Source of the DNA: an uncultured Bacilli bacterium
GTDB lineage: Bacteria > Bacillota_I > Bacilli_A > RF39 > UBA660
Length of the DNA stretch: 37,645 nt
Direction of reading: 5' to 3'
Assembly: GCA_944331915.1 (NCBI GenBank)
Contig: CALVIR010000009.1
Span: 1-37,645 of the forward strand
In this document: piece by piece, positions 3,225 through 20,509 of the stretch
Layout: every line of letters starts with the position of its first letter
How positions within the stretch are numbered: position 1 is the first letter of the stretch
The notes under the pieces: generated by a model
Database searches by the model: none
What the model saw: the letters and a program-made list of their open reading frames with translations, nothing else
Told to the model about the DNA's origin: nothing
Program-made: the position numbers and the translations under genes

Positions 3225-4094
3225 ATGGTTATAAACGATTTAATAGAAAAAGAAAATATTAAAATAGAAGATATGATATATGAGATTAGAGGAAAGCAAG
3301 TGATGCTTGTTAACGATGTTGCTGAAATATATAATTCTGAGACGAAAGTAGTTAATCAGACCATTAAAAGAAATATAAAGAGATTTCCAGAAGAGTTTTG
3401 CTTTCAATTAACTGATATAGAATGGGAAATCTTGAGGTCACAATTTGTGACCTCAAATAATAAAGCTCATGAAATAACACGTGGTGGTATAAGATATCTA
3501 CCATATGTTTTGACAGAACATGGAATTATAATGTTATCTGGTCTTTTAAAAAGTGATTTTGCAATAAAGATGAATATAAGAATTGTTAATGCTTTTGTGG
3601 CAATGAGAAGATATATTTCAAATGATTTAAAAGATTATGATAAAATGTTAATAAATCATGAAAATAGGATTTTGTTATTAGAGAAAACTTTTGAAAGATT
3701 TAAAGAAGAAAATAATCATTTGTTTTTTGAAGGGCAGATTTATGATGCATATTCTTTGATGCTTAAAATGTTTGAAAAAGCTAAAGAAAGTATTGTAATA
3801 ATAGATAATTATGTTGATAAGAATATTTTAGATATATTGTCTAAAACAGATAAAAAAGTTACTTTAATTACTAATAGATACAATAATAGTGATTACGAAA
3901 AGTATCAAGGGCAATATAATAATGTTACTTTAGTAGTTAATAACTCTTTTCATGATAGATTTATTATTTTAGATAAGAGGATTTTATATCACTCTGGAGC
4001 AAGTTTTAAAGATTTAGGTAAGAAATGTTTTGCTATTACAAGAATGGAGAGCAAAGAAATATTAGATAGTTTGTTAGATAAGTTAGAGAATTAG
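3225..4094 (+). CDS. ORF6N-domain protein with C-terminal PLD-like region
   Basis: Residues about 15-130 match the ORF6N domain, a DNA-binding/antirepressor-type domain common in phages and gut bacteria. Visible marks are 'EIRGKQVMLVNDVAEIYNSETK', the run NIKRFPEEFCFQL, and 'GGIRYLPYVLTEHGIIMLSGLL'. A helical linker follows (about 140-170). The C-terminal part (about 175-289) contains 'SIVIIDNYVD' and 'FHDRFIILDKRILYHSGASF', which resembles the single-HKD-type phospholipase-D-like module paired with ORF6N in related proteins. AGGAGG is at 3217-3222, only 2 bases from ATG 3225. An ATA at 3231 sits at the ideal distance and is matched in the decayed copy at 4199. No substrate or target can be inferred. 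It probably came with mobile DNA. Confidence 0.8.
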   Translation: MVINDLIEKENIKIEDMIYEIRGKQVMLVNDVAEIYNSETKVVNQTIKRNIKRFPEEFCFQLTDIEWEILRSQFVTSNNKAHEITRGGIRYLPYVLTEHGIIMLSGLLKSDFAIKMNIRIVNAFVAMRRYISNDLKDYDKMLINHENRILLLEKTFERFKEENNHLFFEGQIYDAYSLMLKMFEKAKESIVIIDNYVDKNILDILSKTDKKVTLITNRYNNSDYEKYQGQYNNVTLVVNNSFHDRFIILDKRILYHSGASFKDLGKKCFAITRMESKEILDSLLDKLEN

Positions 4095-13477: not shown

Positions 13478-16423
13478 ATGTACTTGAAAGAAATAGTAAC
13501 TAATGGATTTAAATCTTTTGCAGATAAGATGGAAATAAAATTAGATGATTCTATTACTTGTATTGTTGGACCTAATGGTAGTGGTAAAAGTAATGTTGTT
13601 GATGCGGTAAGATGGGTTTTAGGAGAACAATCAGTTAAAAACTTACGTGGTGAAGGTAGTATGAGTGATGTTATTTTTGCTGGAAGTGACTCAAGAAAAC
13701 CTAAAAACCAAGCGAGTGTAGAACTTATCTTTGATAATAGTGATCACTATCTAAACATCGATTACAATGAGGTTAGTATTAAACGAAGAATATATCGGAG
13801 TGGAGAGAATGAATATTTCCTTAATAACAATAAATGTCGTCTTAAAGATATTACCGATTTGTTTTTAGATAGTGGAGTGTCAAAAGAATCATTTAATATT
13901 ATATCGCAAGGAGAGGTTGCAAGAATATTAAGTGAAAGTAAAGATGATAGACGCCTTGTCTTTGAAGAAGCGGCGGGTATTTTAAAATATAAAAAAAGAA
14001 AAGAAGAGGCTTTAAGAAAACTTGCCAAAACTAATGAAGCGATGGCTAGAGTTGAAGATATAATTAGTGAGTTAGAAATTCAAGTTAATCCCTTGAAAGA
14101 ACAAAGTAAAAAAGCCCTACAATATAAAAATACAAAAGAAGCTTTAGAAAAACTAGAAATAGCTTTAATCGCTTATGATATATATAACTTATCAAGTGAA
14201 GAAGAAATATTAAAAGAGAAAAAAGAAGCCTTAGATAAAGAAATTACGACGATTAAAAGTCAAACTAATCTTGATAGTAGTACAACTTTAAAAAGTAAAA
14301 CAGACTTATTAACAAAAGAAAAAGATTTAGAATTTGTGCAAAAAGAATTACTGACAATTACAGAAAGTTTAGGCTCATTAAATCTTGATCTTAATCTATT
14401 AAGAGAAAATAGAAAAAATAAAGATAAAAATGATAAAGAAGCAATACTTAGAAATTTGTATGAGACTAAAGCTGATTTAAATAAAGAAATAGAGTTATTA
14501 GAAGAAGAAATAAAAATAAATGATGGCAATATTAGTAGTTTTAATAAAGATATAGAAGCATATCAAAATAATATGAATAACTTAAAGATTATGCTTAAAG
14601 ATTATGATCAAACATATAGTAAACAAGATAGAGATATATTATCAACAAAGCATAAAATAGAATTATTAAAATTAGAAGCCGAAAGAGGGACAGCTATTCC
14701 TGATACGGTCAGAAAAATATTAAATACAGAAACCTTAAAAGGAATCTATGACATTATTGGTAATGTAGTTGAGACAAAAGAAGAATATGCTAGATGTTTA
14801 GATGTAGCGATAAGTAGTAGTAAAAACTTTGTTATTACTAAAGATGAAGAAACTGCTAAAGAAGCGGTTAGATACTTAAAACATAATAATTTAGGAAGAG
14901 CTACTTTCTTTCCTTTAGATGTTATAAAGAAACGTTATATAGATAAAGAAAGTCTAGAACTTTTAAAAAAACAAGATGGTTTTGTAGGCGTCTTAGCAGA
15001 TTTAGTTACAACAGATGAAAAATATAAAAATATTATCTATAATCAATTAGGTTTAGTTCTAGTAGCAGGGGATTTAGATACCGCTACTACAATTAGTAAA
15101 AAAATTAATAGGCGTTATAAAGTAATAACTCTTGCGGGAGATGTAATTAATGTTGGAGGATCATTAACAGGTGGATCTAATTATAAAGGTAGAAGTAGAG
15201 TTATAATTAAGCAAGAAATTACAAATCTTACTAATATCGTGATGAGTTTAACAGAAGCGAATAAGAAAATAGTCTTAGATATTAATGAGACAAGAAATAG
15301 TAGTAAGAAACTAGAAGATAAATTATATGATTTAGAGAAAAATCTAAAACTATTAACAGAAAGTAATGAACAGAAAAATAATTCTTTAAAGAATAAAAAG
15401 AAAGATTTAGATAATACTCTTAAAAATATTGCTAACTATGAAGGAGATAGTGAAGAGTTTGATAATAAAGAAATAACTCTATTAGAGCAGATAAGTAAAT
15501 CTAGTGCTTATAAAGAAAAATTAGAATTAAAATTAATAACCTTAAAGAAAGAGATAAGTCTATTAAAAGAAAAAATAGAAGAAGAAGAAAGTAATAGTAA
15601 GTATCAAAATAATTTGGTTAGAAAAAAAGAAGAAGAGAAGACAGCTTTAGAGATTAAGCTAAGTAGAATTGATGTTAAATTAGATACTTTATTAAATACT
15701 TTAAATAGTGAATATGCGATTACTTATGAAAAAGCTAGAGAAAGTTATTCTTTAGATGAAGAGGTAGAAGAAGCAAGATACAAGGTTAATAATTATAAAG
15801 CGGTTATTAAAAGTTTAGGAATGGTTAATTTAGCAGCAATAGAAGAATATGAAAGAGTAAGCACTAGATATGAATTTTTATTACATCAAAAAGAAGATTT
15901 AGAGAAAGCAGAAGCAACGCTTATGGAAATAATGAGAGAAATGGATGAGGTTATGAAGAGTGAATTCTTAAAGACCTTTGAACAGATAAGAAGCGAATTT
16001 AAACAAGTATTTAAAGAATTATTTCATGGCGGCCATGCCGATTTAAAACTAACTGATGATGATATTTTAACAACAGGAATTGAGATAACTGCTTGTCCTC
16101 CAGGTAAAAAGTTAACGACAATTAGTCTTTTATCAGGAGGAGAGAAGACTTTGACAGCGATTAGTTTATTATTTGCTATTATAAATATTAGAACTATTCC
16201 TTTTTGTATCTTTGATGAGGTAGAAGCAGCATTAGATGAAGCGAATGTTATTGAATTTGGTAATTATTTAGCTAATTATAAAAATAAAACTCAATTTTTA
16301 ATTATAACGCATAAAAAGAAGACAATGGAGTTTGCCGATACATTATATGGTATAACCATGCAAGAATCTGGGGTTTCAAAGTTAGTTAGTGTAAAATTAA
16401 CAGGACATGAAGAAATTATTTAG
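13478..16423 (+). CDS. smc: Chromosome segregation protein SMC
   Basis: SMC is the ATPase of the condensin-like complex (with ScpA and ScpB) that compacts and segregates chromosomes. Walker A 'GPNGSGKSNVVDAVRWVLGE' is at about residue 32, signature 'LLSGGEKTLTAISLLFAI' and Walker B 'PFCIFDEVEAALDEAN' are near the C-terminus. The hinge lies at about 420-565, with the glycine-rich 'TLAGDVINVGGSLTGGS'. Two long coiled coils separate the parts. At 981 residues it is about 200 shorter than Bacillus SMC, and the loss appears to be in the coiled-coil arms, since head and hinge motifs are intact. It has its own promoter, and neither ftsY nor rnc is next to it. Confidence 0.97.
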   Translation: MYLKEIVTNGFKSFADKMEIKLDDSITCIVGPNGSGKSNVVDAVRWVLGEQSVKNLRGEGSMSDVIFAGSDSRKPKNQASVELIFDNSDHYLNIDYNEVSIKRRIYRSGENEYFLNNNKCRLKDITDLFLDSGVSKESFNIISQGEVARILSESKDDRRLVFEEAAGILKYKKRKEEALRKLAKTNEAMARVEDIISELEIQVNPLKEQSKKALQYKNTKEALEKLEIALIAYDIYNLSSEEEILKEKKEALDKEITTIKSQTNLDSSTTLKSKTDLLTKEKDLEFVQKELLTITESLGSLNLDLNLLRENRKNKDKNDKEAILRNLYETKADLNKEIELLEEEIKINDGNISSFNKDIEAYQNNMNNLKIMLKDYDQTYSKQDRDILSTKHKIELLKLEAERGTAIPDTVRKILNTETLKGIYDIIGNVVETKEEYARCLDVAISSSKNFVITKDEETAKEAVRYLKHNNLGRATFFPLDVIKKRYIDKESLELLKKQDGFVGVLADLVTTDEKYKNIIYNQLGLVLVAGDLDTATTISKKINRRYKVITLAGDVINVGGSLTGGSNYKGRSRVIIKQEITNLTNIVMSLTEANKKIVLDINETRNSSKKLEDKLYDLEKNLKLLTESNEQKNNSLKNKKKDLDNTLKNIANYEGDSEEFDNKEITLLEQISKSSAYKEKLELKLITLKKEISLLKEKIEEEESNSKYQNNLVRKKEEEKTALEIKLSRIDVKLDTLLNTLNSEYAITYEKARESYSLDEEVEEARYKVNNYKAVIKSLGMVNLAAIEEYERVSTRYEFLLHQKEDLEKAEATLMEIMREMDEVMKSEFLKTFEQIRSEFKQVFKELFHGGHADLKLTDDDILTTGIEITACPPGKKLTTISLLSGGEKTLTAISLLFAIINIRTIPFCIFDEVEAALDEANVIEFGNYLANYKNKTQFLIITHKKKTMEFADTLYGITMQESGVSKLVSVKLTGHEEII

Positions 16424-16510
16424 GGAGTGTTAAAAGTAACTATAGGTTATTGATGTTAATAGTAAATTATGTTAATATATAGTAAATATAATAAGAAAGA
16501 AGGTATGAAA

Positions 16511-16561
16511 ATGAGAACCAACACTCGTTTACAACAAGTTACCTGGGGGGGGGTACTTTAG
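16511..16561 (+). CDS. 16-codon leader peptide with nine-G tract, copy A
   Basis: After a GAAGG ribosome site (16499-16503), ATG 16511 opens MRTNTRLQQVTWGGVL and stops at TAG 16559. An ATG at 16505 is in frame but too close to the ribosome site. A G9 run (16545-16553) encodes the W-G-G-V part, striking in such AT-rich DNA. A paralogous peptide (MRASTSLQMVTWGGVL) stands in the same place before the next surface gene. The C-terminal half is identical at the base level, while the N-terminal half differs at several codons. Directly downstream are a GTACTT/AAGTAC hairpin (16553-16558 / 16568-16573) and a terminator, the layout of a leader-peptide attenuator. It could also be an independent small peptide. 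Translation is not proven. Confidence 0.55.
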   Translation: MRTNTRLQQVTWGGVL

Positions 16562-16591
16562 AAGCTTAAGTACTTTCTTTAATCATAGAAT

Positions 16592-16624
16592 AAGAACAGG
16601 ATAGGTGTATTCTGTTCTTTTTTG
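16592..16624 (+). terminator. Leader terminator (possible attenuator), copy A
   Basis: AAGAACAGGAT (16592-16602) pairs with ATTCTGTTCTT (16609-16619; one G-T), followed by a T-run. It lies between the peptide ORF and the surface-protein gene, so read-through is needed to express the latter unless another promoter exists. Confidence 0.8.
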
Positions 16625-16647
16625 TGGTTAAATGAAAGGAGTAAGAG

Positions 16648-18486
16648 ATGAAGAGATTATTATTAAATACTAAAGTATCAAATATATATATAATAAGTGT
16701 AATATTAATAACTATATTACTATTAGCAAGTTACTTTTCTTATGCTATGTTTACTGTTAGTAAGGAAAAGAATAATGCGATAAGTATTGTCACAGGAACT
16801 TTAAATTATGACTTAAAAGTAGATGGAGTTAGTACTGATGAACTAGTTGTTGGTCCAAATGAAGAAAAAACTTTTACTATTACCTTAAGTAATCCAAATG
16901 AGAGGATGGCTAGATTTAATTTTTATTATGTCGGAGCTTTACCTGAAGATGTAACCGCTGGTTATTTAGTAGATAAAGACATTAATATTCCGCCTTTAGC
17001 AGAAGGACTTAATTTAGAAATATCTGGTAGTGTCGGAGCTAGTAATGTTTATAAGATAAGAGTAACTAATAACTCTAATAGTAACGTAACTATTACTTTA
17101 GGAGTAGAGGTAGGACTAGACTATAATGATTTAAGCCTACCTAGTAACGGTCATTTATTTGATGAGTATAAAGGAAAGTTACTAGCAGAGTTATTATTAG
17201 CAGATAATTCTAATAATATAAATACAACAGATAAAGAACAGACTTTTATAACGGGAGAGGATCCTAATAACTATATCTGGTATAGTGGTAAGTTATGGAG
17301 AGCGGTATCAATAGATCCAAGTGATAATAGTGTAAAATTAGTGACACAGTGGAATATAAGTTCTATATCATATAATGAATCTAGTAATACATCTTTTGTA
17401 GGTAGTAATATGGAAGCATGGTTAAATGATACAAGTGTGGATGGTTTTCTTAATAATTTAAGAGACCCAGAGAAATTTATTAAAATGGATAGTGTGTGGA
17501 ATGCGTCTGAGACTACTGATCCAACAAAACTTGATAAAACAGTAATGGTAACAGATCCTGTAGGACTTTTAAATATCTATGAATATACGATGAGTTCTAG
17601 TGGTGTTGGAGTCAGTAATGGCTATTTAAATAATAATACTATCTGGTGGACTATGACTCCTTATACAGATAACAATACCATTTACGAGGTTTTTCCTGAT
17701 GGTACCTGTAATCCAACTTATTTGCCAGGTTCTTCTTTCGGAATAAGACCGTGTATCAATTTAAAATCCGATGTAGGTGTGGTGGAGGGTAATGGAACAA
17801 TAGATGATCCCTACCGTTTATATGGAGATAATGATAAAGACCTTTCAGGAACACTATTAAGTACAAGATATAGTGGCGAATATATAAGGCTTGGTACGGG
17901 AGAAAATAATTTATATCGAATAGTTAGTCATGAAAATGGTACAGGAACAAAGATAACAAGTGCTGAACCTTTAAAGAGTAATGGCGAATTTATAACTTTA
18001 GATTATAAAAAAGATAATATTTTTGAAAGCTTTTCGCCTAATAGTAATATTGGTAGTTTTTTAAACAATACTTATTTAAATACTTATATTGATAGTACTT
18101 ATTTAAATATGATTGAAGAAAATACTAATTGGTATTTAGGAGTAGTTGATGGAAATGGAACAAGTTATAAATTAGCAAAATATGTAGATGTAAATTTATC
18201 TACTACTGTATCTTATACTACTGCAACAATAGGTTTACTTAGATATGGTGAATTAATGGCAGGACAATTTAATGTTATAAGTAATAATATTATTTATGGT
18301 ACTTTAACAATGATCAATAATAATAATGAATATTTACGTGTAGTTAGTGAAGATAGTAAAGCCTATGATTATTATCCAATAACATATGTGTTTGGTATCA
18401 AACCTTCCTTTAATTTAAAAAGCAATGTTATAATAACAAGTGGGACAGGAACTAAAGATAATCCATTTGAAATAGCTCTTGATTAA
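16648..18486 (+). CDS. Membrane-anchored surface protein with two DUF6273-like domains
   Basis: The 612-residue protein has a lysine-rich start and one hydrophobic segment (about 12-33) that should anchor it with the bulk outside. Residues about 40-190 form a beta-rich domain ('VTGTLNYDLKVDG', 'FTITLSNPNERMARFNFYY') shared with the next gene. Two tandem domains of one type follow: about 205-380 ('YIWYSGKLWRAVSIDPSDNS', 'WWTMTPYTDNN', 'FGIRPCINLKSDV') and about 395-612 ('YIRLGTGENNLYRIVS', 'FGIKPSFNLKSNV'). These resemble DUF6273, found in surface proteins of gut Firmicutes. AAAGGAG precedes ATG 16648. The gene follows the poly-G peptide leader and terminator, so its expression may be conditional. 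Ligand and role are unknown. Confidence 0.72.
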   Translation: MKRLLLNTKVSNIYIISVILITILLLASYFSYAMFTVSKEKNNAISIVTGTLNYDLKVDGVSTDELVVGPNEEKTFTITLSNPNERMARFNFYYVGALPEDVTAGYLVDKDINIPPLAEGLNLEISGSVGASNVYKIRVTNNSNSNVTITLGVEVGLDYNDLSLPSNGHLFDEYKGKLLAELLLADNSNNINTTDKEQTFITGEDPNNYIWYSGKLWRAVSIDPSDNSVKLVTQWNISSISYNESSNTSFVGSNMEAWLNDTSVDGFLNNLRDPEKFIKMDSVWNASETTDPTKLDKTVMVTDPVGLLNIYEYTMSSSGVGVSNGYLNNNTIWWTMTPYTDNNTIYEVFPDGTCNPTYLPGSSFGIRPCINLKSDVGVVEGNGTIDDPYRLYGDNDKDLSGTLLSTRYSGEYIRLGTGENNLYRIVSHENGTGTKITSAEPLKSNGEFITLDYKKDNIFESFSPNSNIGSFLNNTYLNTYIDSTYLNMIEENTNWYLGVVDGNGTSYKLAKYVDVNLSTTVSYTTATIGLLRYGELMAGQFNVISNNIIYGTLTMINNNNEYLRVVSEDSKAYDYYPITYVFGIKPSFNLKSNVIITSGTGTKDNPFEIALD

Positions 18487-18557
18487 TAAAAGTATTGTTA
18501 TGATATTAAATTTATGTTAAACTTATATCAAGTTAATAATAGAAAGAAGGTATGAAA

Positions 18558-18608
18558 ATGAGAGCAAGCACCAGTTTACAAATGGTTACCTGGGGGGGGG
18601 TACTTTAA
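18558..18608 (+). CDS. 16-codon leader peptide with nine-G tract, copy B
   Basis: ATG 18558 opens MRASTSLQMVTWGGVL, ending at TAA 18606, with GAAGG just upstream. Compared with copy A, five codons in the first half change (four of them altering the amino acid). The last eight codons before the stop are identical in bases, including G9 (18592-18600), and the stop differs (TAA against TAG). The ORF has been kept despite substitutions, which supports translation, but the stretch of base-level identity runs past the stop, so the DNA or RNA sequence itself may be what is conserved. Confidence 0.55.
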   Translation: MRASTSLQMVTWGGVL

Positions 18609-18638
18609 AAGCTTAAGTACTTTCTTTAATCATAGAAT

Positions 18639-18670
18639 AAGAACAGGATAGAAGGATTCTGTTCTTTTTT
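18639..18670 (+). terminator. Leader terminator (possible attenuator), copy B
   Basis: AAGAACAGGAT (18639-18649) pairs with ATTCTGTTCTT (18656-18666), followed by a T-run. The stem is identical to copy A; only the loop differs. Confidence 0.8.
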
Positions 18671-18694
18671 GTGGTTAAATGGAAGGAGTAAAAG

Positions 18695-20467
18695 ATGAAA
18701 AGACTATTATTAAATACTAAAGTATCAAAAATATATATAATAAGTGTAATATTAATAACATTATTACTATTAGCAAGTTACTTTTCCTATGCGATGTTTA
18801 CTGTAAGCAAAGAAAAAAGCAATGCTATTAGTATTATTACGGGAACACTGGATTATAAACTAGAAATAGATGGAAAAGAAGGAAATACTTTAACTATTCC
18901 TGGTGGGAAGTCTATAGAGTTTATAGTTACTTTAAGCAATCCTAATGAGTGAATAGCAAGATTTAACTTTTACTACTTAAATGAAATACCAGAAAATGTA
19001 AATGTTGGTTATATAACAGATTGTGAAACTAATCCATTACCAGAAGAAATAGGAGTTAATCTAGAAACAAGTAAAAGTATAGGTAGTAGTAATAAATATA
19101 AAATAATGGTCGAAAATAATACTAATAATGAAGTAGTAATAGAATTAGGGGTACAAGTAGGGCTTGATTATAATGAATTAAGTTTGCCAAGTAATGGACA
19201 TTTATTTAAAGAATATATAAATGAACCAAATGCTCCCGAATTAGATAGTAATATGATTGCCGTAAAATATGAAAATAATAACTGGGTGAAAGCAGATACA
19301 AATAATAGTAATAATGATTGGTATAACTATAGTAGCCAGAAATGGGCTAATGCTGTTACTGTTAGTAGTAATACAAGAGAAAGTTATAAGAGTGCAAGTG
19401 TAGGAACCATAATAAATATGGATGATATAGAAACTATGTGGGTATGGATACCAAGATATAGTTATAGTATTGCAAGTGAAGATGGAACTAATTATTATGG
19501 AAGAAAGAGCTGTTATTTAGAAAATAAAGCCACTAGAGAATTACCAGGAGAAATAGATATAAGATTTGTCAGTAAAGAAATAAAAGATAGGGGTAGTGCA
19601 AAATACATAACAACAACAGGAGCAAGAGAGTATTATACTCCAGATGCCTTTACATTCGGAGATGAGGAACTAAGTGGAATCTGGGTTGGAAAGTTTGAGA
19701 CAAGTAGTAGTGATCCAAACGTTACTAATGGAGGAGGAAATACAACAGACTTAGATCCGATGATAAAACCAAATGTTACAAGTTGGAGATATATTAATGT
19801 AAGTAATGCTTTTAATGTCAGTTTAAAAATGAATGATGAAGAGAATAGATATGGTTTTAGTAGTAATGTCGATACACATATGATGAAAAATAGTGAATGG
19901 GGAGTTGTAGCATATCTATCCCAAAGTCGATATGGAAAGTTAGGAAACGCTGATTATAGTGGAATAAATAAAGAGGTATATCAGAACAAGAGTGATAAAT
20001 ATATAACAGGATGTAGTTGGGGCTATCCTGGAGGTGGAACAGAAGAGGATTATGGATGTCAATATACATATGATATTGATATAAATGGGACAGGAGCAAG
20101 TACAACAGGAAATATTTATGGAATCTATGATATGAGTGGAGGAGCCTGGGAATATGTGATGGGTAACTATAATGATATAATTGCTAGTTCTGGATTTATA
20201 GAAATGCCGGAATCTAAATACTATGATAAATATACAACAGATAATATTTTAACGGCTTGTAATGGAAAAGAATGTTTATCACATGGTTTGTCAGAAACAA
20301 AAGGATGGTATAATGACTATGATAATATGATTAATAATATTTATCCTTGGTTATTACGTGGTGGTGGTTACAATGATTTTGGAGCTGGCATTTTCTACTT
20401 TGATGCTCCTGTTCATATTGGCAATGCTAATAACGGCATTTCCTTTCGCTTTGTAATTGTTTTATAA
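18695..20467 (+). pseudogene. Surface protein with FGE/C-type-lectin-like C-terminus, interrupted by an in-frame TGA
   Basis: The frame is continuous for 590 codons except one TGA at 18950-18952 (codon 86). The intact paralogue has arginine there (NPNE-R-MARFNFYY against NPNE-TGA-IARFNFYY), so this looks like a point mutation from AGA or CGA. The N-terminus repeats the anchor and beta domain of the preceding gene. The C-terminal half, from 'IETMWVWIPRYSYS', carries formylglycine-generating-enzyme/C-type-lectin-fold marks: 'GIYDMSGGAWEYVMGNY', 'WLLRGGGYND' and the end 'SFRFVIVL'. The last 40 codons look like a retroelement variable region. ATG 19106 could restart the frame but has no ribosome site. 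It may be a true pseudogene, a strain variant or a sequencing error. Confidence 0.72.
20345..20466 (+). other. Candidate variable region (VR) of a diversity-generating retroelement target
   Basis: From CGT 20357 to CGC 20449, 30 of 31 codons end in C or T (the exception is one GGA), whereas the rest of the gene favours A-ending codons (GGA, AGA, ACA). NNY codons are what adenine mutagenesis of an AAY-rich template produces. The protein it encodes, R-G-G-G-Y to S-F-R-F-V, is the usual end of C-type-lectin-fold retroelement targets (RGG...GFR). A perfect 12-bp hairpin lies 12 bases after the stop, where known systems have a recognition hairpin. No reverse transcriptase or template repeat is in the window, so the donor would act from elsewhere. 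Confidence 0.55.
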
Positions 20468-20478
20468 AGGAAGATACA

Positions 20479-20509
20479 AAAAACCTCTAGCAATTAACTA
20501 GAGGTTTTT
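20479..20509. terminator. Bidirectional terminator between convergent genes
   Basis: AAAAACCTCTAG (20479-20490) and CTAGAGGTTTTT (20498-20509) form a perfect 12-bp stem with a 7-base loop, A/T-runs on each side. It serves the surface gene and the minus-strand CPBP gene, whose stop codon overlaps it. Confidence 0.88.

Follow-up and report, generated by a model that had tools for sequence, protein, structure and literature searches.

The two leader units described here, together with the related copies found throughout the genus, are very likely (probability about 0.8) phase-variable, ribosome-controlled transcription attenuators placed before surface genes. In the absence of expression data, both the switching and the assignment of OFF and ON states are inferred. 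It is likewise very probable, again by inference, that each surface gene is flipped off and on at random by the length of a G-run located in a short leader ORF.

Architecture of the leader units

The window (the whole stretch of DNA that was analysed, 37,645 nt) carries two like-built leader units, 2047 nt apart, which have in common a direct repeat of 300 nt that is 90% identical. Each unit comprises a short ORF with a strong Shine-Dalgarno sequence (SD) and ending in a G9 tract, a small hairpin with CTTTCTTT, an intrinsic terminator, and a surface gene 24 nt past the T-run. These parts are shown by the sequence, and are located as follows.

16470..16478, + strand: extended -10 promoter-like TGTTAATAT (TGnTAnnnT), ~15 nt upstream of the leader SD
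16494..16503, + strand: leader Shine-Dalgarno AGAAAGAAGG, identified in the sequence
16511..16561, + strand: leader ORF copy 1, MRTNTRLQQVTWGGVL, 16 codons, from ATG 16511 to TAG 16559-16561; state A (stop just 3' of the G-run)
16545..16553, + strand: G9 tract setting the reading frame, copy 1, identified in the sequence
16573..16580, + strand: CTTTCTTT copy 1, frame-locked to the long frame; complementary to the SD region of the surface gene
16592..16619, + strand: intrinsic terminator 1, 12-bp stem, T-run to 16623, from terminator detection and folding
16648..18486, + strand: surface protein gene 1, 612 aa, signal-anchor N-terminus, DUF6273 domain, 24 nt past the T-run
18558..18608, + strand: leader ORF copy 2, MRASTSLQMVTWGGVL, state A
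18592..18600, + strand: G9 tract, copy 2
18620..18627, + strand: CTTTCTTT copy 2, identified in the sequence
18639..18666, + strand: intrinsic terminator 2, with the long-frame stop TAG 18649-18651 inside
18695..20467, + strand: surface protein gene 2, N-terminus as in gene 1, in-frame TGA 18950-18952

The original prediction had described a 16-codon ORF with G9, followed by a small hairpin and an intrinsic terminator, and a recurrence of this arrangement at 18558; both points held. It had also stated that one G less would bring the leader frame to a TAG in the terminator stem, which held, and that one G more would end it at TAA 16566, which held except for one base. The stops of the three frames in copy 1 are TAG 16559-16561, TAA 16567-16569 and TAG 16602-16604, the last of these inside the terminator hairpin. 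The chance expectation for G8 matches in the window is 0.04, and G9 is present twice; the two terminators compare with an expectation of 0.5 in shuffled sequence. A search of Rfam with positions 15000-20500 of the window returned no family at the gathering score.

Two further observations concern the window. In gene 2, a TGA is found at 18950-18952 where gene 1 has AGG, and the frame then resumes to 20467; the gene is predicted to be OFF, and the change looks like a nonsense mutation. Separately, an ORF6N-domain gene (phage antirepressor type) is located at 3225-4094, directly 3' of cell-division and wall genes.

Conservation and distribution of the leaders

Leader copies were gathered by searches and by regions. 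The sample of genome contigs (genome_contigs) was picked with a pattern fixing the core and at least five G; for this reason, only copies retrieved by similarity were used to assess how conserved the core is. In most of the 156 non-identical copies the frame LQxVTW is open, with an in-frame ATG. An SD is present in 135 of the 145 copies that have both an in-frame ATG and enough upstream sequence, and an extended -10 motif lies upstream of 109 of these 135 SD-bearing leaders, compared to 20/135 in shuffled sequence. Every leader ORF contains the G-run, and the N-terminal modules vary in sequence and length with the frame kept. Translation of the leader, and its effect on expression, are inferred.

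Recurrent in-frame N-terminal modules, QGKINRQFWGKLIRHFSKTSG and MMVYPPEKVYQNYTSTR, were seen upstream of the core in L054, L055, L057 and L061. In L061, L119 and L135, the same G-run core is followed by a different module, consisting of a hairpin of the GGCAGTTTTTATCCTTAAGCATAAAAACTGCC type with a separate terminator, AAGTCCTTATGATATAAGGATTTTTTT.

A search for the motif in the genome and its relatives identified 18 copies in the window's own genome, and leaders in 33 of the 35 genomes of the genus (with Candidatus Onthousia among the relatives), mostly with surface genes behind them. All runs of at least 8 G in the own genome (1.37 Mb) fall within leaders. The core pattern GTTTACAAnnnGTTACCTGGGGG was found in at least 114 stretches, from species genomes and from metagenome assemblies labelled uncultured Bacilli, Tenericutes, bacterium, or Candidatus Onthousia; it gave no match in viral contigs. 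In a family-wide search with the core pattern (291 genomes), the element was not found beyond the genus except for a lone match in G173, which I take to be due to chance. An order-wide search with a looser pattern, a G-run then CTTTCTTT (241 genomes), identified beyond the genus only G266, where the arrangement differs. This candidate was rejected as a leader switch: its G10 sits at the start of the gene's own ORF, and it is therefore a different kind of switch. In this sequence, from another genus of the family (L212, G-run at ~1501; G266:C12 near 14230), the G10 occupies the first codons of an ORF that continues into a signal-anchor protein, which corresponds to ordinary in-gene phase variation of a surface protein.

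A single frame is open to the terminator in all copies compared

For the 137 copies whose terminator could be recognised, of which 67 are dissimilar, I compared the three frames following the G-run. In all 137, the frame locked to CTTTCTTT contains no stop between the G-run and the terminator. The stop of this long frame is found inside the terminator hairpin, 5-12 nt into its 5' arm, in 136/137 copies, and exactly 10 nt into the arm in 87. Both other frames are closed 24 nt or more upstream of the terminator, except in one of 274 cases.

The probability that a given frame is open in shuffled sequence is 0.26 per copy. Since the copies are related, the 67 are not independent, and this value should not be multiplied naively. 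The frame rule holds, however, over 24 distinct hairpin segments and 26 spacings. The distance from the G-run to CTTTCTTT takes 26 different values, from 17 to 68 nt, and the rule therefore survives many insertions and deletions; the hairpin-1 segments number 24 at <80% similarity, and 10 at <70%. The rule itself is thus shown by sequence comparison, and that the long frame corresponds to the ON state is inferred.

Natural variation of the G-run

The G-run is 4 to 13 nt long among the copies, mostly 9. Its length selects the frame, and natural copies are found in all three states. The long frame is occupied in 14 of 137 copies, with none of the 18 leaders in the own genome compared to 4/19 in G002.

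Pairs of closely related copies illustrate this variation. For a locus common to G000 and G002 (L169/L187), 99.7% identical over 3 kb, the tract is G11 in one and G10 in the other, which moves the stop between the two short states. A second pair, L055/L086, comes from two different assemblies and shows 54 substitutions in 4.65 kb, with G9 versus G11 as the only internal indel. Here the stop shifts from a short frame to inside the terminator, and the G9 allele is predicted to be OFF and the G11 allele ON, as inferred from sequence alone. In a third pair (L064/L147, 97.4%), tract and frame differ too, but with further changes beside the tract. For the first two pairs, the sequences are metagenome assemblies assigned to different species. 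All the copies come from metagenome-assembled genomes, in which a population is collapsed to a single sequence; the length of a G-run may therefore be miscalled, and mixtures are hidden.

Length variation and alleles in both states are shown in natural copies, and slippage in growing populations is inferred. The original prediction of slippage-driven phase variation through an attenuator is supported by the comparative frame rule and by these natural alleles, with the OFF and ON states and the switching itself remaining inferences.

Pairing with the ribosome-binding site of the surface gene

The conserved CUUUCUUUCAU pairs, with covariation, with the ribosome-binding site of the gene behind the leader. 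Specifically, the segment CUUUCUUUCAUnAU pairs with the surface-gene SD plus its flank, at -10.1 kcal/mol for matched partners compared to -9.0 (sd 0.25) for permuted partners, and none of 200 permutations was as good. The flanks covary, CATTAT occurring with ATAATG, and CATAAT with ATTATG. The pairing of CUUUCUUUCAUnAU with the SD is also seen in the folded first leader of the window. The covarying pairing is shown by sequence, and its action in vivo is inferred. It is likely, on this inference, that transcripts leaking past the terminator would yield little protein as long as no long-frame ribosome opens the pairing.

Pairing of the G-run with CUUUCUUU was also considered as the main switch. 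It is weaker on average than the gene-SD pairing (-6.0 compared to -10.1), and was therefore kept only as a possible side feature.

Proposed mechanism

In the proposed model, each unit would be read from the promoter and SD through a short leader ORF that ends in the G-run, the small hairpin with CUUUCUUU and the intrinsic terminator to the SD and start of the surface gene. Strand slippage would alter the length of the G-run, and this would set the frame of the leader. In two of the frames, translation would end at the G-run or shortly past it, leaving at least 24 nt to the terminator, which would then form and keep the gene OFF. In the third frame, the ribosome would read through the hairpin and CUUUCUUU and stop in the terminator; with a ribosome stopped there the terminator could not form, and the gene would be transcribed (ON). 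As CUUUCUUUCAU would also be paired with the SD of the gene at the foot of the terminator, the passing ribosome would free this SD, providing a second lock, at the level of translation.

Genes behind the leaders

A gene with an SD directly follows the terminator in 98 of the 127 leaders with enough sequence, mostly 21-39 nt past the T-run, and 96 of these 98 genes encode a hydrophobic signal or anchor N-terminus. Searches of the surface proteins against Pfam and NCBIfam identified DUF6273 in several, and the others are unnamed. No directly following gene was found for the other 29/127 leaders, and at some of these a promoter-like stretch precedes the next gene; attenuation is therefore not the whole story at these loci. 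In L013, L014, L015 and L018, a second hairpin (GTAAACTGGTTATATAACCAG) comes after the terminator, and a promoter-like stretch then precedes the next surface gene.

At several loci common to G000 and G002, the 1 kb of upstream sequence shows 92-96% identity, while the genes that follow the leader are only 47-63% alike; for the first locus of the window, the values are 92% upstream and 54% in the gene. I conclude from this that the genes behind the leaders have been exchanged.

Alternative explanations

The alternative that survives best, although unlikely, is that the G-run acts without DNA slippage. Ribosome frameshifting or RNA polymerase slippage would then yield short and long leader products in fixed proportions in every cell, with read-through at a constant basal level. 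A long G-run ahead of a hairpin is in principle prone to frameshifting, and the frame rule fits this explanation as well as it fits DNA slippage. However, near-identical natural alleles differ in the length of the G-run, which moves copies between frames, and DNA-level change therefore does occur over evolutionary time.

I consider the remaining alternatives very unlikely. The G-run could be the target of a trans-acting, C/U-rich small RNA, as reported for RepG and the tlpB leader (PMC8295292), with its length tuning repression. In its favour are the RepG precedent and the fact that the mRNA leader in front of the gene carries a G-repeat of variable length. Against it, all G8/C8 runs of the own genome are within leaders, and there is therefore no C8 RNA elsewhere; a loop with a shorter C/U-rich stretch remains possible. 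This alternative also leaves both the frame rule and the stop inside the terminator unexplained.

Two further alternatives, a signalling peptide and a recombination site, had been listed with the original prediction; both explain less than the attenuator, though genes behind the leaders are indeed exchanged. In the first, the leader would code for a peptide (LQxVTWGG) that is functional or secreted, with the terminator merely marking the end of the peptide gene. In favour of this, the core is strongly conserved, and the N-terminal modules stay in frame despite their differing lengths. However, the N-termini are wholly different between copies, the C-terminus changes with the G-run, and the surface genes start ~20-40 nt past the terminator, which leaves little space for a promoter of their own. 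As for a leader serving mainly as a recombination site for surface-gene exchange, with the G-run and frames incidental, the G000/G002 loci described above are in its favour, but incidental sequence would not hold one frame open to the terminator in 137/137 copies, and homologous exchange within a conserved repeat requires no special site.

Comparison with known systems

It had been stated with the original prediction that no described system of such design was known to its author. Such a system is in fact described, namely the pil1 and pil3 loci of Streptococcus gallolyticus (PMC3894217). A literature search for phase-variable leader-peptide/terminator attenuation gave this one real precedent; it returned no described G-run version, genome-wide family or genus-wide spread. 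In pil1, GCAGA repeats are located in the leader peptide, and the principle has been proven experimentally (Danne et al., 2014; PMC3894217). As in pil1, the units described here have a leader ORF with SD and ATG, a terminator before a surface gene, and a repeat number that differs at the same locus. As in both pil1 and pil3, simple repeats lie in a short leader ORF, out-of-frame changes in their number shift the stop toward an intrinsic terminator, surface structures are controlled, and the ribosome prevents the terminator (here by inference); in the pil systems, most cells are low-expressing. The pil1 OFF stop lies 39-49 nt upstream of the terminator, and the ON stop within or next to it; wild-type behaviour is seen in isolates whose stops lie at least 28 nt upstream (PMC3894217). 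The stop-to-terminator distances in the poly-G leaders match these.

There are also differences. The repeat unit is a GCAGA pentamer in pil1/pil3 and a mononucleotide G-run here, and I therefore consider that the poly-G leaders work like pil1, but do not file them as the same family by descent. Two loci are described for pil1/pil3, compared to 18 per genome here. One frame is OFF and both others ON in pil1/pil3, whereas two are inferred to be OFF and one ON in the poly-G leaders. The gene-SD pairing and the exchange of genes behind the leaders are found here, unlike in pil1/pil3 (the sequence relation was compared by repeat type only). The principle itself is thus known; the new elements are the poly-G tract, its genus-wide use in multiple copies, the likely second lock, and the gene exchange behind the leaders.

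More distant parallels can be drawn. In the E. coli trp and pyrBI attenuators, translation of a leader peptide likewise decides whether a terminator forms. These attenuators respond to charged tRNA or UTP. In contrast, nothing here points to a metabolite signal, and the length of the G-run is the proposed control variable; the leader also lacks a trp-type series of regulatory codons for a single amino acid, having one Trp codon and otherwise Gly codons from the G-run. In Helicobacter pylori, the mRNA leader of tlpB similarly possesses a variable G-repeat, bound by the small RNA RepG (PMC8295292), but a trans-acting small RNA is needed there, and its description includes neither a frame rule for a leader ORF nor a terminator. 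Finally, phase variation through homopolymers within genes is known, for example in Campylobacter and Neisseria. Slippage in a G/C homopolymer changes the reading frame in those cases as proposed here, but in the poly-G leaders the frame change affects a separate leader ORF and would act on transcription, not on the frame of the surface protein.

Implications

A bolder reading is that, throughout the genus, ~20 independent one-base switches per genome, each with a double lock of terminator and masked gene SD, constitute together with gene exchange a system of combinatorial antigenic variation that evolved independently of the streptococcal pilus system. I would give this reading even odds. If such attenuators are found to be the standard control of the surface repertoire across an uncultured gut genus, this would make the attenuator design a general solution. 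Because metagenomes directly reveal which state, ON or OFF, is predicted for a leader, population-level switching in animal guts is testable without culture.
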